Below are positions 58,437 through 60,724 of a DNA stretch of 64,000 nt, in pieces (the stretch's first letter is position 1; each line of letters begins with the position of its first letter). The DNA is taken from NCBI RefSeq assembly GCF_016937535.1, contig NZ_JAFHKK010000001.1:62001-126000 (forward strand). Reading direction: 5' to 3'. The notes under the pieces were generated by a model. That model did not search any database. It saw nothing but the letters and a program-made list of their open reading frames with translations, and had not been told where the DNA came from. This DNA comes from Sulfurospirillum tamanense (GTDB taxonomy: Bacteria; Campylobacterota; Campylobacteria; Campylobacterales; Campylobacteraceae). The position numbers were made by a program, and so were the translations under genes.

Positions 58437-58750
58437 TGTACACCTTTTTCACCTGCGCCAAGGTGCTTCCCATATTCAGCAGTAGCATGTCCGCTACCAC
58501 CAATACCGCCATGGCTTCAGCGACGACGCTTCCGCGCACGGCGATGCACGGGTCGTGGCGGCCTTTGAGGTTACATGTAACGCTATTTCCGTGGATGTCT
58601 TGGGTAGGTTGGGCATGAAAGATGGAGGGCGTGGGTTTAAAATGGACACGCAGTTCTATGGGCGCACCTGAGCTAATGCCACCTAAAATGCCTCCTGCGT
58701 GGTTACTTAAAAAACCGTTTGCGCTCATGAGGTCGTTGTTTTGGCTGCCC
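58432..58750 (-). pseudogene. aroC: Truncated aroC 3' end (displaced by KAP insertion)
   Basis: Last roughly 105 codons of chorismate synthase without start or catalytic N-terminal part. Up to 58462 it is identical to the same stretch of the complete aroC; the final ten residues differ ([10 protein letters not shown] here, TIEQVKKLYM in the complete gene), so this is probably the original end of the native gene. Confidence 0.9.
58462..58750. repeat. 289-bp perfect direct repeat, left copy
   Basis: Base-for-base identical to 60755-61043 by reading. Its left edge is where the two aroC ends diverge; its right edge is the junction with unique KAP DNA. Includes the last 15 codons and stop of KAP (58703-58750) in another frame. 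Confidence 0.95.
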
Positions 58751-60724
58751 CTTCCATAATTGCAACAATTCGTTTTCTTCTTCTGTCAATAAATCTTCAT
58801 CTAAGCTTTCAATATAGGTTTCGATTTCTTTCAAGTCAATCATTAATTTACAAAATTCCTTAGAATTTGAAATCGATTCCTTATACATTCCTCCTTTTAC
58901 AATAGCAAAAAAAGTTTCCTTATCCTTGAAAATAAGTTTCTTGAATTCTTCTTTTATTTGGTCTAATTTTTCCTGAAATTCTTCTCTATTTACAAGAACT
59001 GAGCGAAAAATTTCCTCCTCTTTTAAAAACGCCCAAAAATCCAACAATGCCAATTTTTCTTTCAAATATTGATGTACACGCTGTTTCGCTTCTTCTTCAT
59101 ATCCTTCCATTATCACAAAGATATCCATTTTTACCCATAATGGGGTTGCACTCTTTACATTGTCAGTGAAAAAGGCAACCATGAATTCTTCATTATTCAT
59201 ATTACTAAGCATCTTCTTTGAGAAGTGCAAAAATAACGAGTCTAAGGGTGTTTCAATGGTTGAATCTTTGTTTTTCACTCTAAAATATTCATGCATTTTT
59301 ATGGCATTGTAAAAAGTATTTTTCTGCTCTTCTTTTTTGGAATGTATTAAGGTAATCTTATTTGCCATTTCAATAAAAAACGCACCTTTTTTTGCCTCAT
59401 ATAGGTGTAAAAATGCTTGCTTAAACACCTCGAAATCGTCACCCTGAAAAAGCTTTTCGGTTTCCCTAAATTCACCATACGATAGCTTGTCATCTGAAAC
59501 AGAAAAAGCAAAATAGTTTTCAAAATAATAGGGGTCAGCAAGGTATTTATCTCCATGGTCTTTGTTTGAAAAGCCTTGACCATACGCAAACTCACTGCTA
59601 TCCAGCATAGGGAAAAGTAAATTTAAAACATTACCAAAAACAAGATGCCTTTGGGTCATTGTTTCAAACTCTTTTTTTATTTTATCTTTGTCCAAAAGGT
59701 TCCAACTTGGACTAACAACACATTGGCTAAAGTCATCCCTAATCTCACTGTAAAGCCGATTGTTTTTTATTTTTAGAAGCGATAGAAGAAAAAAATCTGT
59801 AAAATTCACATCTTGAGCAATGATAGGATACTCAAAAGAGAGAGTACCTTCAAGAAGATAGACATCTCGCATCGTAAGAATATACTTCGGTACAATATCA
59901 CGAATTACATGTTCCCATTTATATTTATCAAAAAATACTTTGCGTCTGTCTTCTTTAACTCTCGCAAGAATTGCATCCAACTTTTCATGCAACACTCCAT
60001 GCAATGTCACATTATGAGGTTTTGGCACACAAAGAGGGTATTGGACGATTTTCTCAAGGTATTTTTCGCCTGATTCTTTTTTAAATGTCTCCAAAGAACG
60101 GGCAACAATCTCTTTGTCATACAATAGAAGGTAAATCACATTGTCAAAATCAGCTATACCCTTAACCAGCCTAAAAATAAACTCTGTTTCTTTATCGGTA
60201 AGCCTGTCGATGTCATCGATAATAATGACAATCTTTCTCTTCAGCCCCTGAAGGTATCCATTGATGCTTTTCTTGATGGCTTCAAGGCTTTGGGTTTTTG
60301 AAGGGCTTGATTTGGGTTTTAACTTCCACGTTGCGCTTAGCATCCCTGTTGAAACGCTTACATTTTCAGGTGCAATGACAGAAACAAGGGTCTTGATGTC
60401 TTTTTTGATTTGCTCATTCCATTTTACATCAAAGGAAGTGCGAGATAAAACTGTAATAAGTTCATCAAAAAAGAGCTTAACCACTTGGTGCAAATCCGCC
60501 ACAAGCCAAGGATTAAAACGCATCACCTCAACCTCTTCTTGAATCTCATTTTCTATGAGGTTAACCAGCGAGGTCTTGCCACTACCCCATTTTCCCTCAA
60601 TGGAAATCACAAAAGCTTCTTGCTGTTCGTAGTTCAAAATTCCCTGTGCAACTCTTTTGGCAAAAGAGCTAAAACCAAGCCTATCCTCATCATGTGCATT
60701 AATAGGAAAGCTTGAATTTTTCAT
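58703..60724 (-). CDS. KAP family P-loop NTPase (putative anti-phage protein)
   Basis: 673 residues. Walker [11 protein letters not shown] at 44-53, RFNPWL near 69-74, Walker [12 protein letters not shown] at 165-175, and [10 protein letters not shown] near 198-207, the KAP/PifA pattern. The P-loop domain has no obvious membrane helices in the insert, so it is probably the soluble form. The C-terminal half is helical, charged and unrelated to its neighbours. The ATG immediately follows the aroC stop. The last 15 residues ([15 protein letters not shown]) come from aroC DNA read in another frame, so the native KAP end is probably missing. More AT-rich than neighbours and free of the TTACATGTAA motif. 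KAP NTPases include PifA, which excludes phage T7; a defence role is inferred. Confidence 0.88.

Follow-up and report, generated by a model that had tools for sequence, protein, structure and literature searches.

The window, by which we mean the whole stretch of 64,000 nucleotides analyzed here, carries directly behind aroC a KAP P-loop NTPase gene whose product is a chimeric protein, since its last 15 codons and its stop are made of aroC DNA read out of frame. This chimerism is reciprocal: the functional aroC gene ends in 30 bp of foreign sequence at the same time as KAP ends in an aroC-derived tail, so that both genes are chimeric. The structure is clearly a recombination scar and not a new kind of system, and it is probably recent. 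On the minus strand, the gene order is rnhA, rnc, aroC, KAP and a 98-codon aroC fragment, followed by a convergent gene for an outer membrane protein (OMP) (Table 1). Only one direct repeat family of at least 60 bp was found in the 64-kb window. Its two copies match exactly over 289 bp, a match that cannot have arisen by chance, and simple chance was rejected as its source for that reason.

Table 1. Features of the aroC-KAP region (positions in the window)
Feature	Position	Strand	Evidence
Hairpin ending native aroC, now 3' of KAP and the fragment	58405..58436	-	-14.7 kcal/mol, z -6.25; same place in G001
Native 30-bp aroC 3' end, stranded 3' of KAP	58432..58461	-	2/30 mismatches to G001, where the hairpin and OMP gene likewise follow
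Downstream copy of the 289-bp exact repeat; aroC 3' part, pseudogene fragment	58462..58750	-	Repeat search, sequence comparison
KAP final 15 codons and stop, out-of-frame aroC DNA	58703..58750	-	ORF, repeat map, homologue alignment
KAP P-loop NTPase gene (PifA-like), 3' end chimeric	58703..60724	-	Pfam KAP_NTPase, PADLOC PifA, GC
2004 bp of unique inserted DNA, made up of the foreign aroC tail and KAP codons 1-658	58751..60754	-	Sequence comparison; absent from G001
Functional aroC, encoding chorismate synthase; listed ORF, start codon uncertain	60725..61879	-	Pfam 4.8e-127
Foreign 30-bp aroC end (TIEQVKKLYM and stop), imported with KAP, contains TTACATGTAA	60725..60754	-	7/30 mismatches to native end, 7/30 to G001
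Upstream copy of the 289-bp exact repeat, within intact aroC	60755..61043	-	Repeat search, sequence comparison
219-bp tract, 98% identical to G001	60798..61016 (other repeat copy, 58505-58723)	-	Third positions, mismatch scan

The tail of KAP lies fully within the downstream copy of the repeat, in a frame differing from that of aroC; these bases serve as aroC codons in the upstream copy. An earlier note on this DNA had made this observation for the interval 58703-58753; it holds through 58750, whereas the final codon of that interval, K658 (AAG, 58751-58753), lies outside the exact repeat. The note had further reasoned that homologues sharing the body of the protein and differing in their tails would confirm a chimera, and that unlinked homologues with the same 15-residue tail would speak against it. 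In an alignment of KAP with eight homologues that were 34-46% identical, a helix ending in ELLxxW was common to all nine proteins and W657 was invariant. The body was shared up to this residue and other tails followed beyond it, which confirmed the chimera. In the five closest homologues, the invariant W is followed by 6 residues before the end (NKKSKW, DRKTRW, NNNDRW, KNNEKW, and RNNDKF), the last residue being W or F (e.g., WNKKSKW and WKNNEKW, each followed by the stop). Among the more distant homologues, the ends HRENI and HKKENV were seen, as well as a longer and unrelated tail in one. The aroC-derived tail was absent from all of the aligned homologues (0/8), and the window protein alone has such a tail. 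Judging from the homologue ends, the native tail was cut at the junction with a loss of about 5 residues, in agreement with the empty site of a sister genome (see below), and a basic tail of 15 residues with a net charge of about +5 was gained, both as first proposed. The choice that had been offered between a dispensable tail and a chimeric protein was resolved for the chimera, but the two are not exclusive and can both hold. Indeed, the extreme tail is probably dispensable, because conservation within the family is lowest there, and a function for the new tail is unlikely. In a structure model of KAP, the last well-formed and supported helix ended at residue 658 and residues 660-673 had pLDDT values below 50; this model was poor overall (mean pLDDT, 54) and was dropped as too weak to guide tail placement or a fold search.

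The KAP ORF encodes 673 amino acids. Residues 18-289 matched PF07693 (KAP_NTPase) with 2.6e-49, and both Walker A (GKWGSGKTS) and Walker B (IVIIIDDID), which are invariant or near-invariant in the nine aligned proteins, are present, as expected of a KAP P-loop NTPase. The best PADLOC match was PifA (3.1e-75; KAP residues 6-445 against positions 9-476 of the 720 in the profile). The body of the gene has a GC content of 35%, compared to 45% for the window. KAP is predicted to be a PifA-like, phage-defense-type ATPase with an anti-phage role, and is presumably still functional. If the protein is indeed still active, this suggests that the extreme C terminus of the KAP/PifA-like group tolerates replacement.

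The origin of both aroC ends was apparent from comparison with G001, a genome of the same genus from which KAP is absent and in which the site is empty, with aroC followed by the hairpin and then by the OMP gene. The aroC end in G001 (TTAGCACAGGTGAAAAAGGTGTACATGTAA) agrees at 28/30 positions with that of the window's downstream copy, and the same hairpin and then the OMP gene follow in both; therefore, the downstream copy and not the functional gene holds the native aroC end, which the insertion has displaced by 2.3 kb. The functional gene ends in ATAGAGCAAGTCAAAAAGCTTTACATGTAA, with 7/30 changes compared to the native end and also compared to the G001 end. Its last ten codons were hence replaced by the foreign version TIEQVKKLYM, a conservative tail with which AroC is intact. 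Relative to G001, 289 bp were duplicated and nothing was lost at the insertion. The insert holds KAP and 30 bp of aroC only, with no integrase and no second gene. The aroC stop codon abuts the KAP ATG, and since the insert consists of the foreign aroC tail followed directly by this ATG, the donor must have had KAP directly 3' of aroC. An aroC transcript likely includes KAP as its final gene and ends at the old aroC hairpin, itself a likely terminator.

Some further observations concern the surroundings of aroC. Approximately 85 bp (61795-61879) are shared by the listed aroC ORF and the end of rnc; the true start is more likely internal, at an MNHFGKRLCV-like sequence (compare L076), and the first 28 or so residues of the ORF may be untranslated. 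In both the window and G001, an OMP gene, a sensor kinase gene and a response regulator gene (55081-58399 in the window) lie between aroC and a GNAT gene. In another relative, G012, none of these three genes intervenes, and aroC ends right next to the GNAT gene. A contig break inside aroC of G012 was considered as a second duplication or KAP insertion and was rejected, since the contigs share an overlap and the end of aroC leads directly into the GNAT gene; it looks like an assembly break.

The palindrome TTACATGTAA was found 26 times in the window, against 0.04 expected, and 1059 times in the genome, against 1 for a reversed-string control. Its extended consensus is CTTTACATGTAAAG, and its sites (e.g., 60725-60734, 58571-58580, and 60864-60873) lie within genes and between genes. 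Counts were 1084 in G001, 804 in G012 and 1220 in G118, which belongs to another family; they were moderate in G007 and G019 and ranged from 0 to 9 in the other relatives searched. The palindrome is a candidate HIP1-like or DNA-uptake-like signal; the string had no match in the literature searched.

As a whole, we consider it rather probable that the insertion had one homologous and one illegitimate end and duplicated 289 bp of recipient DNA. The PifA-like KAP gene would have entered by natural transformation, with DNA of an unsampled relative whose genome already had it directly 3' of aroC. At one end, a homologous (RecA) crossover inside the recipient aroC would have left the last 30 bp of the donor on the functional gene. 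At the other end, the incoming DNA would have broken within KAP just before the last few codons, and we infer that the broken end was joined, in the same step, by an illegitimate event to a point in aroC lying 289 bp farther upstream on the sister chromosome copy, duplicating these 289 bp. KAP would thereby have lost about 5 native residues and would now be read across 15 aroC codons, out of frame, until a chance stop. The joint itself (TTATGGAAG joined to GGGCAGCC) has two sides that are unrelated in sequence, and any microhomology is legible only against the donor. Matches to ComEC and DprA are present in this genome, and inter-chromatid integration of transforming DNA resulting in duplication has been documented in pneumococcus (PMC3784515). 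A donor as diverged as G001 would be expected to show approximately 16 differences in 289 bp, with a calculated probability of about 7e-8 for none. Because zero differences are so improbable while the foreign tail differs at 7/30 positions, the duplicated 289 bp are most simply recipient DNA, and the exact identity of the two copies then needs no further step.

A short stretch of the repeat has a history of its own. The 219-bp tract shows 4 differences to G001, compared to a mean of 34 per 219 bp over approximately 8.5 kb of aligned sequence, in which it is the lowest-mismatch stretch of that length; identity to G001 outside the tract is about 84%. At third codon positions, 67/71 were identical to G001 within the tract, compared to 172/259 in the rest of aroC. 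No such rise was seen with three other relatives, G012, G118, and G009 (24/66 versus 100/259, 27/71 versus 114/258, and 27/71 versus 87/259), which rules out selective constraint as the cause; the tract is thus a short, recent exchange between the lineages or species of the window and of G001 at the repeat. Short-tract homologous exchange is hence indicated at the very place of the insertion, and the tract may be linked to the KAP event. Patchy tracts in this style have been reported for natural transformation (PMC13344027).

The same map would result if a donor fragment with mid-aroC (GGGCAGCC) on one side, KAP codon 658 on the other and the donor's aroC end in between had circularized and entered by one RecA crossover, followed later by gene conversion; the donor end would again lie on the upstream copy and the native end on the downstream copy. 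In E. coli, linear DNA has been documented to circularize and undergo a single crossover (PMC3240628), the G001-like tract present in both copies could be the product of conversion, and a single-crossover duplicate later evened out by gene conversion would have the same appearance as the structure seen here. This route, however, needs the extra homogenizing step, since differences across the 289 bp would also be expected from a donor whose tail has 7/30 changes. We therefore hold it to be possible but distinctly doubtful, and favor the joining of a broken KAP end into the recipient aroC.

No donor with an aroC-KAP arrangement was found in the genus, in 153 genomes of the family, in 399 genomes of the order or in the further sets searched. 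KAP at this identity was absent from 153/153 family genomes, the best match to KAP in genome contigs was 45%, none was found in viral contigs or in phages, and the matches listed from plasmids were below 30% and partial. The foreign aroC tail had no match among the aroC ends of the relatives read. The location of KAP homologues varied among other Campylobacterota. One homologue adjoined a ubiB-like gene (L006), three lay in the hyp cluster (L007, L008, and L079) and one was alone (L080); the neighbors read at such loci include a tRNA nucleotidyltransferase-like gene, beside which one homologue lay alone, and Fic and transposase-like genes. Neighbor names at these loci come from translations and not from family libraries, except where PADLOC is cited. 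None of the loci read had a KAP homologue behind aroC, and when the KAP loci of other genomes were each compared with themselves, no comparable flanking repeats were seen. Given these different locations, we call KAP a roaming lone defense-type gene, here trapped 3' of aroC.

In three genomes, the KAP homologue is found in the hydrogenase maturation cluster, close to a Fic-family gene. The Fic-family gene (SoFic-like in L007, according to PADLOC) is followed directly or almost directly by the KAP/PifA-like gene (L007:3980-7013, L008:4016-7055, and L079:6556-10044). In L007 and L079 the site is the hypD-hypE interval, and in L008 it is upstream of hypE. The two genes are separated by a SixA-like phosphatase gene in L079, and an extra DUF1016-type nuclease gene is present in L008. 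On the basis of this arrangement, the two genes could possibly form a two-gene defense pair with a recurrent site.

It is improbable that the aroC fragment and KAP act as a homology-armed, reversible defense cassette. RecA loop-out via the 289-bp repeats would restore a clean, native aroC-OMP site, and the excised circle, with its piece of aroC, could re-enter the aroC of other strains; a lone defense gene could thus spread without a recombinase of its own, its tail being rewritten at each entry. Islands that target tRNA genes or gene ends insert at the 3' end of a gene, which is restored by the slightly different copy carried by the element. The insertion resembles these in its place and in the slightly different copy that restores the aroC end, but a site-specific integrative element of this type is very unlikely here: the 2004-bp insert carries no element-borne integrase and no second gene, the repeat is 289 bp long, exact and upstream of the divergent end, and KAP homologues sit in unrelated places (L006; L007, L008, and L079; L080). 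An assembly artifact, or a mixture of two strains joined at the repeat, is hardly credible even for a draft of 63 contigs, in which repeats often break or misjoin contigs, since the KAP/aroC junction has no shared sequence usable by an assembler, the two copies end differently and the stated contamination is 0.39%.

The KAP/aroC chimera is well explained by known recombination, and it is an unusually readable natural case of a lone defense gene captured 3' of a core gene with homologous and illegitimate ends, both genes being left chimeric and the native state being recoverable by deletion between the repeats. With PifA of plasmid F and the KAP P-loop NTPases, KAP shares the KAP domain with its Walker motifs, PifA being the best PADLOC match; in contrast to PifA, it is a lone chromosomal gene with a foreign C-terminal tail, and its function is predicted from an alignment to the PifA model that covers only the residues given above. 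The event itself is most likely a relative of homology-facilitated illegitimate recombination (HFIR), which by definition has one homologous and one illegitimate end and usually causes a deletion (PMC3240628). As in the HFIR of S. pneumoniae, A. baylyi, and P. stutzeri, there are a homologous end, an illegitimate end and a short foreign gain of 1-2 kb, and donor sequence continues past the crossover at the homologous junction, in the form of the foreign end of the upstream aroC copy. Loss of recipient DNA is usual in HFIR but not obligatory; here, 289 bp were gained by duplication instead of deleted, and the second joint in HFIR has 3-10 bp of microhomology. The inter-chromatid merodiploids of S. 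pneumoniae (PMC3784515) span approximately 100-900 kb and need a repeat, whereas the duplication seen here measures 289 bp and its second end shows no evident repeat; the likeness is to an unequal sister-chromatid exchange with incoming DNA that results in a tandem duplication with a hybrid joint.
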